57,658 bases of DNA from Kiritimatiellota bacterium (GTDB taxonomy: Bacteria > Verrucomicrobiota > Kiritimatiellia > Kiritimatiellales > Tichowtungiaceae): contig JACNKZ010000046.1 in NCBI GenBank assembly GCA_014381785.1, positions 1-57,658 on the forward strand, given 5' to 3'. The translations under genes and the position numbers were made by a program. The notes under the pieces are model-generated. The model had not been told where the DNA came from and searched no databases. It saw only the letters and a list, made by a program, of their open reading frames with translations. Below, in pieces: positions 72 through 51,723 of this stretch. Position 1 is the stretch's first letter. The number at the start of each line of letters is the position of its first letter.

Positions 72-1856
72 ATGGACGTCACCACATTGACCCGCAATGA
101 ACCGGAACAGGAACTGATTCAGAAACTGCTGGATGCCGGACAGGAACACCTCTTTGCCGACTGGGACGCGCCCGGCATACAGGATGAAGCCAAGGCTGCA
201 TTTCTGGCCACACTCACGCGCATCGACAGCTCGTATCCCGGCGGGCTGACCGGTTACATCACCAATGCCCGCACCCTGCTCGCCGAAGCCCGGAAGGGTG
301 GAAACCCGTTCGACGGCTTTGTGCCGCACCAGCCCAATACGGTCAGCCTCACCACGTTCGATGCGAACTACGATCATTACGAAGCCCTTGGAAAAAACCA
401 CTTTGGCCAAACCGCCATTGTGCTGGTGGCCGGCGGGCTCGGGGAGCGCCTCGGCTACCCCGGCATCAAACTCGACATTCCTGTCGAAGTAACGGAAACC
501 ACGGCCTACCTCGCGCACTACGCCGCCAACCTCAAAGCAATGGAAGCCCGCATGCAGACCCCGCGCCCCGTGCCGTTCATCATCATGGTCTCCGAAGACA
601 CCGACTCCAAAACCCGCGCCGCGCTCGAAACCAACAACTACTTCGGCCTCAAAAAAGAGCAGATTCACATTCTCAAACAGGAGCTCGTGCCGGCCATTGC
701 CGACAACGACGGGCACCTCGCGCTAAAAGAAAAATACAAACTGGTCCTGAAGCCGCACGGCCATGGCGACGTCCACCTGTTGCTCCACACCAGCGGACTG
801 GCGGCCCGGCTTGAACAACAGGGCATCGAACACCTCGTATTCATTCAAGACACCAACGGACAGGTTTTCAACGCCGTGCCCGCCGCCGTCGGCGCCTCCG
901 TCGAAAAAGGCTTCAACTTCAACTCGATTGCCGTCAATCGCATTCCCGGCGAAGCGGTCGGCGGACTGGCCAAACTGGTGAAAGGCGACACCGAGCTGAC
1001 GCTCAATGTGGAATACAACCAGCTCGACCCGCTGCTACGCGCCACCGTCAGCCCAGAAGGCGATGTGCCGAACGAACAAGGCTTCTCCATGTTCCCCGGC
1101 AACATCAACGTACTGGTCATTCAAGTGGCCTCCTATGTGAAAATTCTCGAGCGCACGCGCGGCATCATCGCCGAATTTGTGAACCCGAAATATGCCGACG
1201 AAACCAAAACCACCTTCAAGAGCCCGACCCGACTCGAAACGATGATGCAGGACCTGCCGAAACTTTTCGGCCCGAACGAGAAGGTCGGCGTTTCTGTGTT
1301 CGACCGGGCCTGGTCCTTCTCGGCCAATAAGAACAACATCGTCGATGCCGCCGCGAAAGCCGCGACCGGCGGCACGCCCGAATCCGCCGCAACGGCCGAG
1401 GCGGACTTCTATCTGGCAGGCCGCACAAAAGTCACCGCCGCCGGCATGACGGTCACAGACGCCGCGACCGAATCGATTCTGGATATTCCCATTGTCCCCG
1501 GCCCGCGCGTGATCCTGCGCCCCTCTTTTGCGCTCACGCTCGATGAAGTGCGCGCCAAAATCTCCGGCGGCTCAATCGCCGGCAATGCCACCCTCGTTCT
1601 CGGCGGAAAAGAGATCTCACTCGAAAACGTCGACATCAGCGACGGCTCCGCGCTGGTTATCCACGCCTGCGACGGCGCGAAGGTGACGGTCAAAGATCTC
1701 AAGGTGGACAACGCCGGCTTCGAACTGACTCCTCTGACCGCTGAAGAGATGGAAAGCGCCGACACGCCTGAATATCTGAAGCTGCGCGGCTACCTCATCG
1801 AAAACCGCGGCGCGCAGATCGTCAAATTCACCGAACCCGGCGAATACACGCTCTAG
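72..1856 (+). CDS. UDP-sugar pyrophosphorylase (UTP-monosaccharide-1-phosphate uridylyltransferase)
   Basis: A 594-residue enzyme expected to make UDP-sugars from UTP and sugar 1-phosphates in the cytoplasm. The uridylyltransferase loop AGGLGERLGYPGIKLD lies near residue 118. FIIMVSEDT, LKPHGHGDVH, FIQDTNGQVFN, NVEYNQLDPLLRA and FPGNINVLV follow in the order seen in the broad-specificity USP enzymes of plants; length and C-terminal beta-helix region also agree. This is not the GalU or GlmU type. The ATG is preceded by AGGA. It begins 16 bases after tRNA-Leu and ends 3 bases from the convergent Fic gene. Plausibly works with the phosphohexomutase at 9.4-10.9 kb, which could supply sugar 1-phosphates. 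Family assignment is firm; substrate range cannot be read from sequence. Confidence 0.88.
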   Translation: MDVTTLTRNEPEQELIQKLLDAGQEHLFADWDAPGIQDEAKAAFLATLTRIDSSYPGGLTGYITNARTLLAEARKGGNPFDGFVPHQPNTVSLTTFDANYDHYEALGKNHFGQTAIVLVAGGLGERLGYPGIKLDIPVEVTETTAYLAHYAANLKAMEARMQTPRPVPFIIMVSEDTDSKTRAALETNNYFGLKKEQIHILKQELVPAIADNDGHLALKEKYKLVLKPHGHGDVHLLLHTSGLAARLEQQGIEHLVFIQDTNGQVFNAVPAAVGASVEKGFNFNSIAVNRIPGEAVGGLAKLVKGDTELTLNVEYNQLDPLLRATVSPEGDVPNEQGFSMFPGNINVLVIQVASYVKILERTRGIIAEFVNPKYADETKTTFKSPTRLETMMQDLPKLFGPNEKVGVSVFDRAWSFSANKNNIVDAAAKAATGGTPESAATAEADFYLAGRTKVTAAGMTVTDAATESILDIPIVPGPRVILRPSFALTLDEVRAKISGGSIAGNATLVLGGKEISLENVDISDGSALVIHACDGAKVTVKDLKVDNAGFELTPLTAEEMESADTPEYLKLRGYLIENRGAQIVKFTEPGEYTL

Positions 1857-41009: not shown

Positions 41010-41411
41010 TTATTTCTTTTTAGCAGCTTTTTTCTTAGCGACTTTTTTCTTGGCTGGAGCTTTTTTCTTAGCAGGCGCTTTTTTCACGGCGGCTTTTTTC
41101 TTGGCCGGAGCCTTTTTAGCGGCTTTTTTCTTGGCGGGCGCTTTTTTCGCGGCAGCTTTTTTCTTGGCTGGAGCCTTTTTCGCGGCAGCTTTTTTCTTGG
41201 CCGGAGCCTTTTTAGCGGCTTTTTTCTTGGCCGGCGCTTTTTTCGCTGCGGCTTTTTTCTTGGCCGGAGCTTTTTTCGCTGCGGCCTTTTTCTTAGCCGG
41301 GGCTTTTTTCGCGGCGGCTTTTTTCTTAGCCGGGGCTTTTTTTGCTACTGTCTTTTTCGCTACTTTTTTCTTCGCGACCTTTTTCTTCGCCGCTTTCTTT
41401 TTAGCTGCCAT
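41010..41411 (-). CDS. lysine/alanine-rich histone H1-like protein
   Basis: A 133-residue protein of almost only Lys, Ala and Pro, built from repeats of KKAPAKKKAAA, strongly basic, like the eukaryotic H1 tail and chlamydial Hc2. It should bind and compact DNA without sequence specificity. The repeat makes the complementary frame appear as a false membrane protein. It follows gmk on the same strand by 131 bases and ends with its own terminator. Copy number of the repeats could vary between strains. Confidence 0.88.
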   Translation of the reverse strand: MAAKKKAAKKKVAKKKVAKKTVAKKAPAKKKAAAKKAPAKKKAAAKKAPAKKKAAAKKAPAKKKAAKKAPAKKKAAAKKAPAKKKAAAKKAPAKKKAAKKAPAKKKAAVKKAPAKKKAPAKKKVAKKKAAKKK

Positions 41412-41542: not shown

Positions 41543-42154
41543 TTAAGCGCGTTTTTTGCGTTCCGCATGAATGACCTGAACTAAATTTTCCAACGCGGCG
41601 TCCAGTTGATCGTTGATGATAAGGTGTGCGTACGCATCGCGTTCGCGCATTTCTTTTTCTGCGTTGCGCATTCGTTTTTCAATCGTCTCTTCCGAATCGG
41701 TGGCGCGGTCGCTGAGCCGGCGGCGAAGCTCGTCCATCGAAGGCGGCGCGATGAAAATGTCGACGAAGCTTCTGCGCAGCGGATCGTCTGCGGGCAATGC
41801 GGCACAGGCGGATCGAATTTGAGCGGCCCCCTGAACATCGATGTCCATGATCAGATCGCGCCCTTGCCTAAGCGCTTCCCTCACAGTACTTTGCAGCGTT
41901 CCATAAAGGTTGCCATGCACGTCGGCGTGCTCCAGAAATTCTCCGCGAGCCACCTTCGAGTCAAATTCTTCGCGCGATAAAAAATGATAGTGCTCGCGAT
42001 TTTTTTCTCCGCCGCGCGGTGCGCGCGTGGTGCATGAAACGGAGTATTCCATTGCGGGAAATTTTTCAACCAGCCGGTTACAGAGCGTCGACTTGCCCGC
42101 GCCGGACGGAGCGGAAACGACCAGAAGAAGCGCGTTGTTTTTTTCAGCCTGCAT
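41543..42154 (-). CDS. gmk: guanylate kinase
   Basis: A 203-residue kinase converting GMP to GDP. P-loop SAPSGAGKSTLCNRL, the GMP-binding SCTTRAPRGGEKN and YHFLSREEF, and RLSDRATDSEE are present. Start MQAEKNNALLLVV at 42154. In many bacteria gmk follows yicC; here about 9.7 kb of signalling genes separate them. The first 18 codons plus upstream DNA (42102-42206) are duplicated at 42836-42940. Confidence 0.96.
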   Translation of the reverse strand: MQAEKNNALLLVVSAPSGAGKSTLCNRLVEKFPAMEYSVSCTTRAPRGGEKNREHYHFLSREEFDSKVARGEFLEHADVHGNLYGTLQSTVREALRQGRDLIMDIDVQGAAQIRSACAALPADDPLRRSFVDIFIAPPSMDELRRRLSDRATDSEETIEKRMRNAEKEMRERDAYAHLIINDQLDAALENLVQVIHAERKKRA

Positions 42155-42438
42155 ACGGGAAATCTTTCACACGCACGGCGCAAAGGCAACTGCGTTTGCG
42201 GCGCAGATTTTTTCCAACCATTGGAAGCAGGCAGTGCCTGCACCCAACTATTTTTTATCCGCCTTCGTTTTACTACGACGCGACACATGGAAAATGACCG
42301 GCCGTAAAAAACTTTTTCCGTTCGTCTTCGTTGCGCTTCCTCCTTCGCTAAAACTACGGCGCGACAGGAGAGTTGAAATGTTTTTGTTTCCCGTCCGCCT
42401 TCGTTGCGCTACGACGGGCGATTGAAAAACTCCGCGCG
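42155..42438. repeat. 284-base repeat-filled gap between gmk and the receiver gene
   Basis: Contains an exact palindrome (42212-42226, centre CCA), a short form of the GCAGGC...GCCTGCACCC element (42227-42245), and three related units of the type TCCGCCTTCGTTGCGCTACG near 42259-42283, 42316-42366 and 42392-42420. A similar unit lies at 48004-48030, also just after a kinase receiver. Nothing protein-coding is supported. Confidence 0.8.
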
Positions 42439-42888
42439 TTATTGGCGATCGAGCTTTTCGCGGATTTTACGCAACAGCGCCTGCGCCGGATACGGCTTGT
42501 CGAGTATGGGCAGATGTTTTTCTTTTGCGAATCTGGCATACGCCTCCCTGCCGATATATCCGCTCACAAAAAAATGCGGAAGCCCGGGGCGGCGCTTAAG
42601 GATCGTCTCCATGGCCTCGACCCCGCCCATGCGCGGCATAACGACATCGAATACCGCCATATCGATTTCGTCGGCACGCTTCTCAAAAAGCCGCAGGGCC
42701 TCTTCCCCGTCTTTGGCGGCCAACACGGTGTATCCGGCTGCACGGAGGGTATGCTCCGCCAGCGTCCGGAGCGCGGCATCATCTTCGGCAATCAGAATGG
42801 TTTCCGAGCCGCCTTCCGCGGCGGACTCGACTCGCCCGGACGGAGCGGAAACGACGAGAGGAGGCGCGTTGTTTTTTTCAGCTTTCAT
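42439..42888 (-). CDS. stand-alone receiver protein with a Gmk-derived N-terminus (chimera)
   Basis: A 149-residue protein. Residues 1-18 (MKAEKNNAPPLVVSAPSG) are nearly the same as the Gmk N-terminus and end exactly where the Gmk P-loop would begin; residues ~28-149 form a complete CheY-like receiver: ILIAEDDAALR, phosphate-accepting Asp in AVFDVVMPRMGG, and lysine in LDKPYPAQ. The receiver is a close copy of that at the C-terminus of the kinase at 42973-44970. It has no output domain. The start region (42836-42940) is a 105-bp copy of the gmk start region with 9 differences. Intact motifs suggest it is functional. Confidence 0.8.
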   Translation of the reverse strand: MKAEKNNAPPLVVSAPSGRVESAAEGGSETILIAEDDAALRTLAEHTLRAAGYTVLAAKDGEEALRLFEKRADEIDMAVFDVVMPRMGGVEAMETILKRRPGLPHFFVSGYIGREAYARFAKEKHLPILDKPYPAQALLRKIREKLDRQ

Positions 42889-42940
42889 GCAGGAAATCTT
42901 TCATACGAACGGCGCAAAGGCAACTGCGTTTGCGGCGCAG
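42836..42940. repeat. copy of the gmk 5' region (original at 42102-42206)
   Basis: 105 bases align without gaps to 42102-42206, 96 identical. The copy includes the first 18 codons of gmk, the start codon and about 52 bases upstream. Confidence 0.93.
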
Positions 42941-42972
42941 GTTTTACCGCCTTTGGCGGTAAAGTCCGGGCG

Positions 42973-44970
42973 TTATTTGAGGTCGAGCGCTTCGCGGATT
43001 TTCCGCAACAACTCCTGCGCCGGATACGGCTTGGCCAGCATGGGCAGATTTTTTTCTTTTGCGAATCGGGCATATGCCTCGCTGCCGGCATATCCGCTCA
43101 CAAAAAGATGCGGAAGCCCGGGGCGGCTCTTAAGGATTACCTCCGCGGCATCGATCCCGCCCATGTGCGGCATGATGACATCTAACACCGCCATATCGAT
43201 TTCGCCGGCATGCTTCTCAAAAAACCGCAGGGCCTCTTCCCCGTCTTTAGCGGCCAGCACCGTGTATCCGGCATCATGGAGGATGTGCTTCGCCAACGCC
43301 AGGAGCGTGGCATCATCTTCGGCAATCAGAATCGTTTCCGAGCCGCCTTCGACTGCGGCCGCGGCCGGCCGGGCCGGCTCTTTCGATACCGGATCCTTCG
43401 CGGGGAAATAGAAGTTGAAGGCGGCCCCCTGGCCCTCCTCGCTCTGCACATCCACACATGCGCCGCTCTGCTTCAAAATGCCGAAAACGCTGGCGAGGCC
43501 GAGGCCGGTGCCTTTGCCCACCTCTTTGGTGGTGAAAAACGGCTCAAAGATGTGCCCTTTCGTTTCTTGGCTCATGCCGGATCCGCTGTCCGTTACGCTA
43601 AGCAGGACATAGCGTCCCGGCATGATCTGCAGATGGGACGGAACATCCCCCTCGGAGAATGAAACATTTCCGGTTTTGATCGTCAGCCTCCCCCCGTCCG
43701 GCATCGCGTCACTCGCATTCACACAGAGGTTCATCAACACCTGTTCGATCTGCCCCCGATCCGCGCGGATATGGCCCGGTTCGTGCGCGGGGATAAACTC
43801 GCATTCAATGTTTGCGGCCAGTGTTCTCTGGAGCATTTTCAGCTCGTTGGCGACCACCTCATTCAGGTCGAGATCCTCCGGGCGAATGACCTGCCGGCGG
43901 CTGAAGGCGAGGAGCTGCCGCACCAGCGCGGCGGCGCGCGCCGCCGCCGCAGCAATTTCATCAAGCTGTCCATGCACGGCGTCCTGTGGATCTGTTGCCG
44001 CCAATCCCAATTCGGCAAATCCGCTAATGGCTTGTAAAATATTATTAAAGTCATGCGCAATGCCCCCTGCCAGATGACCGACTGTCTCCATCTTTTGCGC
44101 CTGCTGGAGCTGCTCCTCCATCTGAATTGCCTTGGTAATGTCCGTGGCGTACAGATTCACGTAGCCCTGATCGATTACGGGCCTCAGCTTTACCGTGAAC
44201 ACTTGATCCCCGACCTTTAACTGCGTCTCCATCGGGTGTACCGCCGCCACCGCCTCATCGATCCGCGCCTGCCATTCGGGATTGACCCTGCCGCCAACGT
44301 CGGCCCCCAGCACTGCGATGAAATTGCACGAGGCCTCGTTTGCGTATTCCAGAACGCCCTCAGTCAACACGCGCAGTACCGGGCTCGGGTTTTCCAAAGG
44401 GAATCGCGCGATCCGCTCTTTTTCTTCCTCGGCCCGCTTGCGCTCGCTGATGTCGCTTACCGTTGTGCGAATCTGGTTGCAGTCTTCATCCATCATGCTG
44501 TCCAGCCCGACCCAAAAGTTCTCTTCCCTCAGCACTCTCAACCGCAGCTCGCAGGTCTGTCTTTTTTTCGCCTCGAGGAGCTCCCTTTTGTGCGAGAAAT
44601 AGATGTCCTGATCGTCCGCCACAATATAATCCGACAGGGGCTGATGGATCAGGCGGTCTCCAGAGACCCCCAGCATGTTCGCCATCGTGAGGTTGGCCTG
44701 AACGATCCGTCCTTTTTCATCCAGCGTCAGGTATCCCGTCGGGGCGAAATTGTAGAGCTCAGCGTACTGGTCGCGCGCTTCGGCGAGAGCGGTCTGCGCT
44801 TTGCGCAACTCCTCGTTCTGCATCTCCAGCTCAATCTGATGTGTCTCCAACTCGTGAACCGCCACGACAATCTCTTCCGGGGACATCTTAGAGACGTCCC
44901 TCTTGCCGCCCCCGGCCGCCTGGTGTTGCGCACGCTTTCGCAGCGTCTGTTGCTTATCTTTTTTCTCCAT
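42973..44970 (-). CDS. hybrid histidine kinase (PAS-PAS-kinase-receiver), soluble
   Basis: A 665-residue protein without membrane segments. An N-terminal coiled region (HELETHQIELEMQNEELRKA) leads to a PAS domain (YNFAPTGYLTLDEKGRIVQA), a second PAS (~residues 205-300), HisKA with the phospho-His in [13 protein letters not shown], HATPase (NLCVNASDAMPDGG, DSGSGMS, GTGLGLASVFG) and a receiver (AEDD, AVLDVIMPHMGG, AKPYPAQ). It overlaps the CheB-CheR-PAS gene upstream by 17 bases, so the two are coupled and may form one signalling unit. Its signal is unknown. Confidence 0.88.
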   Translation of the reverse strand: MEKKDKQQTLRKRAQHQAAGGGKRDVSKMSPEEIVVAVHELETHQIELEMQNEELRKAQTALAEARDQYAELYNFAPTGYLTLDEKGRIVQANLTMANMLGVSGDRLIHQPLSDYIVADDQDIYFSHKRELLEAKKRQTCELRLRVLREENFWVGLDSMMDEDCNQIRTTVSDISERKRAEEEKERIARFPLENPSPVLRVLTEGVLEYANEASCNFIAVLGADVGGRVNPEWQARIDEAVAAVHPMETQLKVGDQVFTVKLRPVIDQGYVNLYATDITKAIQMEEQLQQAQKMETVGHLAGGIAHDFNNILQAISGFAELGLAATDPQDAVHGQLDEIAAAAARAAALVRQLLAFSRRQVIRPEDLDLNEVVANELKMLQRTLAANIECEFIPAHEPGHIRADRGQIEQVLMNLCVNASDAMPDGGRLTIKTGNVSFSEGDVPSHLQIMPGRYVLLSVTDSGSGMSQETKGHIFEPFFTTKEVGKGTGLGLASVFGILKQSGACVDVQSEEGQGAAFNFYFPAKDPVSKEPARPAAAAVEGGSETILIAEDDATLLALAKHILHDAGYTVLAAKDGEEALRFFEKHAGEIDMAVLDVIMPHMGGIDAAEVILKSRPGLPHLFVSGYAGSEAYARFAKEKNLPMLAKPYPAQELLRKIREALDLK

Positions 44971-47884
44971 GGCTCTTCCCCCCTATCTCTCGAACGAAGA
45001 TAACAACCTTCCGGCTTCCTGCATCACAATAGGCGCTACTCACCTCCACGTTAAGGAGTGCACCATCTTTCCGGCGCTGGCGGGTCTCAAACCGATCATA
45101 TTCTTTTTTCTGCAAGCGCTCCGCCGACACGCCGTCTTCCGCCTCGACATCGGTAATCGACATCGCAAGCAGTTCCTCACGCGTGTACCCGATCATCCGG
45201 CAATAGGCATCGTTGGTGTTCACAATGTTGCCCTGATCGTCCAGAGCGACAAACCCATCCAATGCACTCTGAATGATTGTCTGATAGAACACTTCACTCT
45301 GCATCACCCTTTCCTCGGCCCGCTTGCGCGCGGTGATGTGCTCGAACGTGATCACCACGCCGTCGATCACATTATTGACTGTGCGATACGGGCGGACTTT
45401 CATGGCATAAATCTCGTCTTCTTTGCTTCGAACCTCCGCCTCCCGAACGGCCAGCGTCTTGAGCACCTTGTGCCCGTATTCAGCCAGATCCACATCCATC
45501 AGGCGGGTCGAAAAATGGTCGATCGGCCGTCCCTCATCGGTGCTTGTCAGCGGGATGATGTCCGTAGCCCTTGGCGTAAAGCGGCGCACACACAGATCCA
45601 AATCCAGAAAGACGGCTGCAATCTCGGTACTGTCGAGCAGGTTTTTGATGTCGTCGTTAATTTTGGAAAGATCATTGATGCGGCTTTTAAGCTCCGCGTT
45701 CACGGTGGAGGCCTCTTCGTTCAGCGACTGCAGCTCCTCTTTCGAGGTTTCCATTTCTTCGTTGGTGCTCTGCAGTTGCTTATTGGTGCTCTGCAGCTCC
45801 TCATTCGCTGATTTCAACTCTTCGTTGGCCATTTCCAGTGCTTCGATGGTTGTTTGCAGCTTTTCCTGCGTGTGCAGCAGGTCTTGCTCAAGCTCTTCAG
45901 CCGTTCTTCTTTCCTTTTTGCCTGCTGCTGGCGCTTCCTGAGCCCCCTTCTTCGGGGCGGTGCCCCCCTTCTGGAAAACCACCATCATCAATCCGCGCAT
46001 GGCGGTTTGTTCCAGAATCGGTTTCACCACTAAGTCCAGATGTTGGCGCTTTTCGTTGCGGCCCACATGCAGACCGCGCTGAACCACCTCCTGCTGATGC
46101 TGAGCCACTTTATGAATGGCGGCGACCAACGCGGATTTCAACTCGGGGCGCACCATCTCCAGGATATTCGTGCTCATCTTGCCTTCGGCTGGCTCAACAA
46201 ACTGGCCGATGCGCCCGTGAACGTAAACGACGTTACAGGCCTCGTCGATGATGACGCAGGGCGGCATGTGACCTTGGTGCAGGATGGTTTCAACCAGCTG
46301 CATGGCGCTGAGCTCTTCCATTTTGCGAATGCCTTCCGGGCCGGCGGGCTGCACGGGCTCGATCTGGGAAAACTGCGCGGTCAGGCTTAGAATCGGATTA
46401 ACCCCGTCGGGCAATTCCGTCCGCTGGAAGATATTCTGTTTTTTATCCAGCGCAGAAAACGAAGGGTCCGCCAACCCAACGGATTCGGACTGTCCGAGAA
46501 ACAGAAGCCCCTGCGGCCTCAAACTGTTATGAAATGTTCGGAGCAGTTTTTTCTGTAATTCCGGGCCCAGATAGATCAGCAGGTTGCGGCAGGAGATGAG
46601 ATCCAGCTGTATAAACGGCGGATCATTAATGACGTTCTGCACCGCAAACACCAGCATGTCACGAAGCGCCGGTTTGATGCGGTATCGCCCGGTGTCCTCT
46701 TTTATGAAATAGTGCTTGAGGCGCTCCGGCGACACATCGGCCTGAATGCTCTCGGGATAGGTCGCCGCGCGGGCCTGATCCAAGGTTGCTTCATCAAGGT
46801 CTGTTCCGAAGATTTGCACGTTGAAGTGGCGATGCATTCGCTCCATACATTCCTGCAAGATGATGGCCAGCGAATAGGCCTCCTCGCCGCTACTGCAGGC
46901 GGCGACCCACACGCGAATGGTGTAGTCGTCCGGCTTCCCTTCCAGCAGCCGGGGAAGGCATGTATCCCGAAGTGCATCGAACCCCTCACGGTCTCTGAAG
47001 AAACTGGTCACGCCGATCAACATCTCTTTAAACAGAATATCAACCTCGCGCCCGCTACTCTGAAGATAATTCACGTAGTCGGCGATGTCATCGATCTGAT
47101 GCACGCTCATGCGCCGTTCGATCCGCCGGCAAATGGTGTTTTTCTTATAGAGGGAAAAGTCGTGGTTGGTCTGTGCCCGGAGCAGGACGTAAATTTTTTG
47201 TAATGCATCGGCCTCTTTTCCGAGCGTTGAAGAGCTGTCGAAAATCTCTGTTTTGGCAATGTGCCGAATATATTTCATCAGCTGTTCGGGCATCTGCCCG
47301 GGCGGCATCACATAGTCGGCCAGTCCGGTGGAGATAGCGCTGCGCGGCATGCCGTCGTACTTGGCCGATTCTTCGCTCTGAACCATCCCCATACCCAGCT
47401 CACCCTTAATCGCCCTGAGCCCCAGTGTTCCGTCGGCACCCGTGCCCGAGAGAATGATGCAAACCGCATGGGGCCCCTGATCTTTAGCCAGTGCGCGAAG
47501 GAACAGGTCGATGGGGAGGTTCAGCCCCCTGGACGCAGGCAAATCCAGCAACTGAAATGTGCCGTTTAAGATCGTCAGGTTTTTATTGGGCGGGATGACA
47601 TAGACGCAATTGCGTTGCGCCCTCGTTCCGTCTTGAGCCTGCTCCACCGGCATGGCGGTTTGTTTTTGCACCAACTCCGGAAGCAGACTGACATGGGTTG
47701 GATCCAGATGTGACACCAGGACAAAGGCCATGCCGCTATCGGCGGGCATCGCTTTGAAAAACTCCTCAAAGGCTTCCAACCCGCCCGCTGAAGCACCGAG
47801 CGCAACGATGGGAACAGCGGCCTTTGTTTTTAAAAGCGCCGACTCGGCTGATGACATCTCTTTGGATGCGCTTTTTTTAGTCAT
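44954..47884 (-). CDS. CheB-CheR-coiled coil-PAS fusion
   Basis: A 976-residue protein. CheB methylesterase (~25-200): catalytic Ser in GASAGGLEAF, His in SHLDPTHVSLLPE, Asp in LSGTGADGTLG. CheR methyltransferase (~215-480): VWVAACSSGEEAYSLA, FGTDLDEATL and NDPPFIQLDLISCRNLLIYL. Then a PAS-like part, a long coiled coil (ELKSANEELQSTNKQL and on, ~640-730) and two PAS domains. No kinase domain of its own; the next gene supplies one. The ATG at 47884 is preceded by a GA-rich site; the longer frame to 47947 is unlikely. No chemoreceptor is nearby, so the methylation target is unclear. Confidence 0.9.
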   Translation of the reverse strand: MTKKSASKEMSSAESALLKTKAAVPIVALGASAGGLEAFEEFFKAMPADSGMAFVLVSHLDPTHVSLLPELVQKQTAMPVEQAQDGTRAQRNCVYVIPPNKNLTILNGTFQLLDLPASRGLNLPIDLFLRALAKDQGPHAVCIILSGTGADGTLGLRAIKGELGMGMVQSEESAKYDGMPRSAISTGLADYVMPPGQMPEQLMKYIRHIAKTEIFDSSSTLGKEADALQKIYVLLRAQTNHDFSLYKKNTICRRIERRMSVHQIDDIADYVNYLQSSGREVDILFKEMLIGVTSFFRDREGFDALRDTCLPRLLEGKPDDYTIRVWVAACSSGEEAYSLAIILQECMERMHRHFNVQIFGTDLDEATLDQARAATYPESIQADVSPERLKHYFIKEDTGRYRIKPALRDMLVFAVQNVINDPPFIQLDLISCRNLLIYLGPELQKKLLRTFHNSLRPQGLLFLGQSESVGLADPSFSALDKKQNIFQRTELPDGVNPILSLTAQFSQIEPVQPAGPEGIRKMEELSAMQLVETILHQGHMPPCVIIDEACNVVYVHGRIGQFVEPAEGKMSTNILEMVRPELKSALVAAIHKVAQHQQEVVQRGLHVGRNEKRQHLDLVVKPILEQTAMRGLMMVVFQKGGTAPKKGAQEAPAAGKKERRTAEELEQDLLHTQEKLQTTIEALEMANEELKSANEELQSTNKQLQSTNEEMETSKEELQSLNEEASTVNAELKSRINDLSKINDDIKNLLDSTEIAAVFLDLDLCVRRFTPRATDIIPLTSTDEGRPIDHFSTRLMDVDLAEYGHKVLKTLAVREAEVRSKEDEIYAMKVRPYRTVNNVIDGVVITFEHITARKRAEERVMQSEVFYQTIIQSALDGFVALDDQGNIVNTNDAYCRMIGYTREELLAMSITDVEAEDGVSAERLQKKEYDRFETRQRRKDGALLNVEVSSAYCDAGSRKVVIFVREIGGKSHGEKR

Positions 47885-48057
47885 GGAGAGCCCCCTCTCT
47901 CTCTCACGGAGCCCGTATTCTGAACCTTTATTTAAAAAAGCATACAAAAATATGAGGGTTTATCCCCCACGTCAGTCAAATAAGCCGCGTGTATGGGGAA
48001 TTCGGCCGTCTTCGTTTCACTCCGTCGCGACAGGATGGTTGGGGAAGATCCGGCGCG

Positions 48058-51000
48058 TTATTTTTCGTCGAGCACTTCACGGATTTTCCGCAGCAAGGTG
48101 TCGACCTGATACGGCTTGTTAAGCAGGTGCAAACCGCGCTTCTGGACGAAGTTGGTGTGCACAGCGCCTTCGCTGTAGCCGCTGGCGAACAGGTGCGGCA
48201 GCCCCGGGCGCAATTCGAGAATGCGGTCGAGCGCCTGTTTGCCGCCGAGACGCGGCATGACCACATCGAACATCACCGCATCAATTTCGTCCGCATGTTC
48301 TTCAAACACCCGAATGGCGTCTTTGCCGTCAATGGCGGTCAGCACGGTATAGCCCGCCGCAATGAGCAGGTGCTCCGCCAGTGCGAGAACGGTTTCGTCG
48401 TCTTCCGCAATCAGAATGGTTTCGGTTCCGCCGACAACCGGCTCGCGCGGTTCGCGAGAGACCACGGCGGCTTTGCGCTCCACGGTCGGCAGATAAATTT
48501 TAAAATTGGTGCCCTTGCCGACCTCACTGTACGTGTTGATATGCCCGCTGTGCTGTTTAATAATGCCAAAGACGGTGGAGAGTCCGAGGCCGGTTCCTTT
48601 ACCCACTTCTTTGGTGGTAAAGAAGGGTTCAAAAACCCGCTCGAGGGTCGGTCCGTCCATCCCGCAGCCGGTGTCTGTTACAGTCAACATGGCGTAGCAT
48701 CCGGGCGTTGCCCAGGCGTGAGTCCGGGCATAGTCCCCTTCGATCAGAACGTTTTCTGTTTTAATGACCAGCCTGCCGCCGTCTGGCATGGCGTCGCGCG
48801 CATTCACACAAAGGTTCATCAGCGTCTGTTCAATCAATCCGCGATCGGCGTGAACCGTGCCGAGCTCACTGCAGGCGACAAAATCGAGCTCGATGTGCTC
48901 ACCAATCAGGCCGCGCATCATGAACAGCAATGGATCAATCACATCATTCAGGTTGAGATCTGTCGGTTGAATCACCTGCCGGCGGCTGAAGGCCAGCAGC
49001 TGGCAGACAAGCCCTCTCCCGCGCTCCGCCGCTTTGCCGATTTCCTTTACCGCCGGGACAAACTCATTGTCCGGCTTAAGGAACATTTCGGAAAGCTCGA
49101 CATAGCCGCTGATCACCTGAAGCAGATTGTTGAAGTCATGGGCGATCCCGCCGGCCATCTGTCCGACGGCCTCCATCTTCTGCGCCTGCCGGAGCTGCTC
49201 CTCCAGCGCCAGTTCATGCGTCGCATCCCGTTTGGCAGCGACATAGTTGACAATCTTTCCGGCGCCATCCATCACCGGCGAAATGGTCGCTTCTTCTGTA
49301 TAGACCGTGCCGTCTTTTTTCTTATTAATCAGCTGTCCGCTCCACGGCTGCCCGTCCGTAAGCGTATCCCACATTTTCTTATAAAACCTCCCGGAATGCT
49401 CGCCGCTCTGCAGGATGCGCGGATTCTGCCCGATGACCTCTTCCCGGGAATACCCGGTTACTTTTTCGAAGGCCGAATTTACATACTGTATATTCGCCTC
49501 CGCGTCGGTGATCAGCACAATATCCGCCGCCTGCTCAATCGCCAGCGTCAGCCGCTCACGCTCTTCCTCCGCCAATTTGCGGCCTGTGATGTCCTGTGTG
49601 AATCCAACGGCGTACATCGCGGCTCCGCTTTCATCCAGCTCGACATCCGCTTTCTGGCGAACCCACTTGATCTCCCCGTCGATCAACAGGCGGTGTTCAA
49701 TATCATACGGCAAGCCGGCGAGCGCATCGGTCCACCGCTTATCGACCATCTCCCGATCATCCGGATGAACTATCTCCAGGAATAGTTCATAGTTCACCGC
49801 CGTTCCGGGCGGAACCCCGAAGATCCGGCAGGCTTCGTCCGTCCAGTGGAGCTGGTTCTGTTTTGGGTCGAACTCCCAGGTTCCGATCTGTCCCAGTTCC
49901 TGCGCCTTTTCTAAAAAGTATTGCTGTTGAATAATTTTATCCGCAGCCGCCTTGCGCTCGGTAACGTCTCTGAACACACCGAGTAGATGCATTCGCCCAT
50001 GGAGCTCCAGCGGCGTGGAACTGACATCTGTGAAGAACGTGCTCCCGTCCTTACGCAACATATGAATATCCGGCGCCAATAAGATTTCCTGCCGGAGCTG
50101 CTTCTCAACTTGAGCCTGTACGTAATCCAAATCCTGCGGCGGATGAATGTCGCCGATTTTCAGTTTTTTAAGCTCTTCAGCCGAATACCCCAGCATGTGA
50201 CAAATAGCCGCGTTCGCCGCCACAAAACACTGCGTCTCGACATCCGCCACTAAAAGTCCATCGCCCGCCGATTCAAAAATGGTCTGCGCCATTTTTTCAG
50301 CCTGCTTGCGTTCCGTCAAATCCCGCCAGACCGTATGCAGCTGCGCGCCCTTTTCGCTTTCAATTGCGGTGAGTGAAACCTCGATTGGAATTTCCGTGCC
50401 GTCTTTGCGCAGATGCATCCATTCGAAACAATAACTTCCCTGCTCGCGCGCCAATGCCATTATTTTTTCGGCCTTTTCAAAAGAAGACTGCCCGTCTGGC
50501 TGTGTCTCGGGTGACAATTTGGATGGGTGCGTGTTTAACAGCTCCGCTTTTTGATCATATCCCAGCATCCTCGCCGTCGCGGCGTTGCAGTCGATAAACC
50601 TATCCCCTTCGAGAATCAACATGGCATCGGTTGAGTTTTCAAAAAAAGTGCGATATTTCTTCTCGCTCTTGCGGATCGCCTCTTCTTTAGCGTAGAGTGC
50701 CGTCACATCGCGGAACACCAGCACCACGCCGATAATTTCGCCATCCAGGTTGTAAATCGGTGATGCGCTGTCGGCAATCTGCGTTTCTGTTCCATTGCGG
50801 TTGATCAGCACCATATGATTCGCCAGCCCGACAATCGTTCCTTCACGCAGCGCCCGCAGCCCCGGATTTTCAACCGTCTGGCGAGACTCCACATTGACGA
50901 TATGAAACACCTCGTCCATCGGATGCCCGACCGCTTTATCAAACGTCCAGCCGGTTAATTTTTCCGCCACCGGATTCAGCCGCGTGACCCGTCCCTCCGT

Positions 51001-51723
51001 ATCTGCGGCAATCACTCCGTCGCCGATAGAGTCCAGCGTAATCGAAAGCTTCTCCTCGCTCTTTTGAAGGGTGCGCAGGTGAGTTCGTTTCTGCCGTTCA
51101 TACACATGCAGCAAAACGGCCACCAGAACGCCCAGCGCTATCGCCAGAACCATCAAGGCGCCCTGTAATTTCTGAAAATGGCGGAGCTCTTTGCCGATGG
51201 CCTGCTGCAGTGCGAGCCCCACCCGGTTCGCGGCGTCGATCAGCGTCCGGGAAATCATATCAAAGCGCTGATCCGCCTCTGTTCCAATCCCTGACTCCTC
51301 CCGAAAGCTCCAACGTTCCAGCGCACTCGAATCAACCTGTTCTAGAATCTGCAGAACCTGCTCAATTTCGCTCCGCAGCCGGGGGTCGCTTAACGGAATA
51401 AATTCGCCGTGATAATCCTCCCCGCCTTCCATCATGGCCCGGGCGTACCACTTCGCTTGATCCAAATGATCCCGGAACCTGTCCAGATCCGCCGGGTTGC
51501 CATCCGTGACAGCATGTTCAAGCCAGAGATGCGATTCCGCGATGTGATATTTAATCTCCATCGCCGCATCCACCAGCGGCGCTTGATGCGCCGTTATGCG
51601 AATGGTGGAGCTCATCGAAAAGCCCAGAATAACAACCGCCGTCAGCGCAAGGCCCACGACCCAAACTGCGGGGTGCCGCCGTTTCGGAAAAACTCTTTTT
51701 GATGAAGCACTGCCGTTTGTCAT
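48058..51723 (-). CDS. membrane hybrid histidine kinase with five PAS domains
   Basis: A 1221-residue sensor. Two transmembrane helices ([18 protein letters not shown] near 25-42; [19 protein letters not shown] near 190-210) enclose a ~150-residue helical sensor domain. Five PAS domains follow (starting near 240, 365, 490, 615 and 745; e.g. [40 protein letters not shown]). HisKA phospho-His is in [13 protein letters not shown], HATPase with [14 protein letters not shown] and [11 protein letters not shown], and a receiver with [17 protein letters not shown] and NKPYQ. It is first of the signalling block, upstream of the CheB-CheR-PAS gene. Confidence 0.9.

Follow-up and report, generated by a model that had tools for sequence, protein, structure and literature searches.

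Probable birth of a free receiver-domain reading frame by tandem duplication at a kinase-gmk junction in a Kiritimatiellota bacterium

How can a reading frame that begins as a guanylate kinase come to end as the receiver domain of a sensor kinase, and does its product, if made, have a role? The question is raised by a stretch of 57,658 nucleotides, called here the window, which makes up an entire contig (JACNKZ010000046.1) of a Kiritimatiellota bacterium whose genome of 2.2 Mb was assembled in 88 contigs. On its minus strand, to which all the window features described below belong, an open reading frame (ORF) of 149 amino acids, the fusion ORF (42439..42888), lies between gmk, encoding an intact guanylate kinase of 203 residues (41543..42154), and the gene of a 665-residue hybrid kinase that we call HK B (42973..44970). 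The fusion ORF comprises about 18 Gmk-derived residues, a short linker that cannot be assigned, and a complete receiver domain.

The duplicated segment and its junction

An earlier note on this DNA had described 42836-42940 as a 105-bp copy of 42102-42206 with 9 differences and no gaps. Both coordinates and counts were reproduced (91% identity), and the second-best 105-nucleotide match within the window reaches only 46 of 105 positions. The gapless alignment extends to 111 nucleotides at 90% identity, pairing the copy of the gmk leader and its first ~18 codons (42836..42946) with the original leader and start, taken as the reference copy (42102..42212). On the other side of the junction, the receiver copy within the fusion (copy 2, 42431..42824) is 87% identical to the C-terminus of HK B (copy 1, 42965..43358) over 394 nucleotides, again without gaps, so the gmk start does lead in frame into a close copy of the adjacent kinase's receiver, as the note had it. 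The receiver copies and the gmk-start copies have diverged to a similar degree. When the junction DNA was searched against the whole genome, it matched in two places only, the second with an E-value of 1.7e-38.

The parents are thus intact and adjacent, the copies stand in the order that a duplication leaves, and homology flanks one new junction, as expected of a chimeric gene formed by tandem duplication. Because of this copy order, the gapless homology on both sides, the uniqueness of the junction, the adjacency of a kinase and gmk in relatives and a divergence that does not resemble an artefact, a single tandem duplication of the kinase-gmk junction, already proposed in the note, appears as a well-supported origin of the fusion. 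As the sequence shows, the duplicated segment ran from the start of the HK B receiver through the intergenic gap and the gmk leader to about gmk codon 18. The event preserved both HK B and gmk entire and placed between them a chimeric ORF that begins with the gmk leader and start codon and runs in frame into a complete receiver.

The new junction lies after gmk codon ~18 and before the linker that precedes the receiver. About 20 nucleotides at this place (roughly 42816..42835) cannot be attributed to one parent: a remnant of the gmk P-loop DNA shortened by a small deletion fits them about as poorly as the GC-rich linker of HK B does. A P-loop remnant frameshifted by a 5-nucleotide deletion at the junction was considered, but its match (GGGCGAGTCGA/GGGCAAGTCGA) is non-significant (chance 0.06). 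Joining in frame would be expected in about one such event out of three and would require no selection.

Gap 1, the 84 nucleotides from the HK B stop to the fusion start (42889..42972), contains the second copy of the gmk leader, in which TGAAAGATTTCC occurs, together with a small palindrome. Gap 2, the 284 nucleotides from the fusion stop to the gmk start (42155..42438), is about 200 nucleotides longer; at 42207-42440 it holds pieces of dispersed repeats of the CCGCCTTCGTTGCGCTACGACG family, which match 20 other places in the genome. This extra length with repeat pieces is consistent with a later insertion. The core of the gmk leader, TGAAAGATTTCC, stands directly before the start codon in both copies (42889-42910 and 42155-42176), and it is common to two relatives, G006 and G011, but not recognisable in two others, G010 and G009. 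The inheritance of the gmk translation start, another point of the note, was borne out as sequence, part of the leader being common to two other species. The core could be a translation or promoter signal. One may then ask whether the protein is irrelevant, and whether it is the added leader copy and the DNA before gmk that alter the expression of gmk or HK B. The retention of the core in both leader copies and in G006 and G011, and the longer, repeat-containing gap 2, would agree with this, but the leader is unrecognisable in G010 and G009 and no promoter-like match was found, and we consider such an expression effect quite unlikely.

The search of related genomes for the junction, which the note had put forward as a check, found it in none of 57 (13 of the same genus), where gmk starts alone match. 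In G010 and G006, which belong to the same genus, a hybrid kinase that belongs, broadly, to the same family is located immediately before gmk without any duplication. These kinases group with kinase A, another hybrid kinase of the window, and not with HK B; HK B itself was not observed in an unduplicated form. In G011, a third genome of the genus, the kinase has disappeared, and what remains of it between yicC and gmk is a scar of some twelve C-terminal receiver codons (locus L172, contig C195, positions ~900-960, minus strand); therefore, kinases have been gained and lost at the gmk locus. In G009, gmk is found at a different place. The best relatives of HK B are of the kinase-A type (56% identity to that of G009), its branch is long and its position in the tree is moderately supported. 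The receivers of the fusion and of HK B are sisters (86/100), with near-equal tip lengths of 0.17 and 0.15.

The same arrangement could also have been reached in two steps: a larger segment with the whole of HK B and gmk would first have been duplicated, and a deletion would then have removed the DNA between a point within the first gmk and a point within the second HK B. This account differs from the favoured one in the number of steps only. Its finished sequence would be identical to the one-step outcome, and hybrid kinases do come and go at this locus; however, it supposes two events where one suffices, and no remnant of the remainder of gmk or of the N-terminus of HK B is present between the copies. 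We regard it as improbable. Less probable still, to the point of being hardly credible, is that versions of the kinase-gmk junction from two strains were joined in one contig. The fragmentation of the assembly speaks for such an artefact, but the copies differ by 10-13% and show a dN/dS (ratio of non-synonymous to synonymous substitution rates, also given below as omega) of 0.6, versus 0.10 for the kinase-A receivers, where strain versions should display the constraint of working genes. Moreover, the Gmk-derived part of the fusion carries Leu-Leu to Pro-Pro changes that occur in the Gmk of none of 22 relatives, unlike what allelic working genes would show, and the gap lengths differ by 200 nucleotides. 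Since a dN/dS of ~0.6 and the Pro-Pro pair are unlike the working genes of two strains, divergence after duplication fits the data.

The predicted product and its parent kinase

The fusion ORF is uninterrupted from ATG to stop, and its sole Pfam domain is Response_reg (PF00072), at residues 31-142 of 149; its domain make-up is thus that of a single-domain response regulator, with one receiver domain and no output domain. The catalytic residues of the receiver are all kept (E35/D36/D37, D81, S109 and K131), and the GAGKST of the Gmk P-loop has become GRVESA, two features that the earlier note had read correctly. The Guanylate_kin domain is not matched, and by its sequence the fusion is no guanylate kinase, the Gmk role being lost in the Gmk-derived part. 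Because Pro-Pro stands where the Gmk of all 22 relatives has Leu followed by Leu or Met, this part is the derived copy. The AlphaFold2 model gives a complete CheY-type receiver fold, with a predicted local distance difference test score (pLDDT) above 90 across most of the receiver and of about 49 in residues 1-20, so that the Gmk-derived tail is probably disordered. Further short receiver-only reading frames are present in the same genome.

In HK B, all the kinase domains were detected (PAS, HisKA, HATPase and the receiver). It is CckA-like in sequence, its top NCBIfam matches being CckA models; we do not name it CckA because these matches score under the family cut-off. The best-scoring solved relative of the fusion receiver is likewise the receiver of CckA (PDB 6TNE; PMC9981736), with an E-value of 2.7e-16. 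The CckA receiver is tethered, whereas that of the fusion is freed from its kinase; the view that constraints on specificity are relaxed in tethered receivers is discussed in PMC9981736. The receivers of the fusion and HK B differ at residues 39 and 47, two of the five positions that align with contacts to the dimerization and histidine phosphotransfer (DHp) domain of CckA. Changes seemed to be concentrated in helix alpha1 of the receiver, which contacts DHp (they affect 7 of 14 positions, with a nominal p of 0.017), but this was not used as evidence, since p rises to 0.46 when any window of equal size is considered.

If made, the product would belong to the single-domain response regulators, as a free receiver whose Gmk-derived tail is short and disordered. 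Such a receiver would compete with the tethered receiver of HK B for the phosphate on the HK B histidine; alternatively, it would dock on the HK B transmitter and damp the kinase. By analogy with known regulators, its most likely action would be that of a single-domain regulator taking phosphate from HK B or inhibiting it, and the suggestion of the note, that a freed receiver could compete for or relay the phosphate of the kinase, is possible. The closest parallel is Osp, a single-domain response regulator that acts on and inhibits CckA (PMC9430884). As here, a free receiver without output domain is involved and the kinase in question is a hybrid kinase resembling CckA; unlike Osp, the fusion occurs in one genome, is known from sequence alone, and has the receiver of the very kinase on which it would act, copied and joined to a tail from Gmk.

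Divergence since the duplication

The rates of change of the receivers were estimated with a codon model on five sequences (the fusion, HK B, kinase A, G009 and G010). Omega is about 0.10 on the background branches, i.e. those of the kinase-A-type receivers, versus 0.64 on both post-duplication branches taken jointly, and the data reject one common rate for the whole tree when one ratio is compared with free ratios (p 2.5e-6). Both receivers have thus changed fast since they became separate copies, and the model gives no significant sign of purifying selection on that of the fusion. Wherever the relatives allow the ancestral residue to be judged, derived residues are seen in one copy as well as in the other; therefore, the fusion is not clearly the faster-decaying copy.

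Several of these results weigh against a functional gene. The two young branches are compatible with neutral evolution (0.64 versus 1, p 0.17), and for the fusion branch alone omega = 1 gives p 0.59, the free estimate running to its bound; the dN/dS that the earlier note had proposed as a check is thus about 0.64 for the two copies together and indistinguishable from neutral. In simulations with 10-26 neutral changes, the frame and all 8 checked residues were kept in 47-14% of the copies, and because so many neutral copies retain them, the intact frame and catalytic residues are weak evidence of function. To this must be added that no sigma-70-type promoter was matched across the region and that the fusion is known from a single genome in a fragmented assembly.

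Taken together, these points give substance to the possibility that the same tandem duplication produced a neutral by-product, i.e. a chimeric ORF without a selected role that is merely unbroken so far. It is further favoured by the pairwise comparison of the receiver copies (dN/dS 0.58, bootstrap 0.31-1.37; 29 replacements versus 33.6 expected without selection, a non-significant shortfall at p 0.087), and by the receiver tail of G011, which persists at the same place as a mere scar. On the other side, the frame, the fold and all catalytic residues are intact and no indel has occurred across 394 nucleotides; the tip lengths of the two receivers are nearly equal, and the receiver of HK B is similarly relaxed, so that the fusion cannot be called dead from its rate alone. 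We therefore hold a neutral, decaying by-product to be a serious contender, almost as likely as a functional receiver, even if we would not go so far as to favour it. The favoured account, in which the tandem duplication gave rise to a young free-receiver gene that would act on its parent HK B and whose fate is unsettled, has in our estimation about an even chance of being right. A stronger version of it would be that of a newborn regulator, where the freed receiver, placed under housekeeping start signals, tunes or insulates the parent kinase while both receivers diverge to share or split the role; this we put forward with more reserve, as rather unlikely.

Gene neighbourhood, parallels and meaning

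The series of genes on this strand consists of a PALP-family enzyme, an esterase, yicC, kinase A, a CheB-CheR-PAS protein, HK B, the fusion ORF and gmk. The PALP-family enzyme upstream of the esterase and yicC is probably TrpB. Kinase A (48058..51723) is a hybrid kinase rich in PAS domains and falls in one clade with the kinase that precedes gmk in G010. The CheB-CheR-PAS gene (44954..47947) and the start of HK B have 17 nucleotides in common; the pair stands between kinase A and gmk in the window, and neither G006 nor G010 has a strong match to the CheB-CheR-PAS protein. Immediately 3′ of gmk, a Lys/Ala-rich, repetitive ORF resembling histone H1 is found at 41010-41411.

A known case of this kind of birth is rnk-citG from the E. 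coli long-term evolution experiment, where a tandem duplication formed a truncated fusion ORF (PMC5918244). In both cases the junction joins the beginning and the expression signals of one gene to the rest of its neighbour, and complete copies of the genes remain. The differences are that in rnk-citG the gain was the expression of citT behind the junction, the fusion ORF being incidental, whereas in the present case the reading frame continues across the junction into a complete domain and the copies have diverged by 10-13%. A single-domain receiver is a common type of product; it is the origin of this one that is unusually clear.

Chimeric genes arising by tandem duplication have been documented in laboratory evolution, and natural bacterial cases in which the parents are still adjacent and unduplicated relatives are available are useful. 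The present case illustrates how a hybrid kinase may shed a free receiver in one step, with the start of a housekeeping gene borrowed for it. What the fusion offers is a well-documented gene origin together with a proposal for a function, that of a free receiver which may act on its parent kinase, and it is well suited to a direct test of phosphotransfer.
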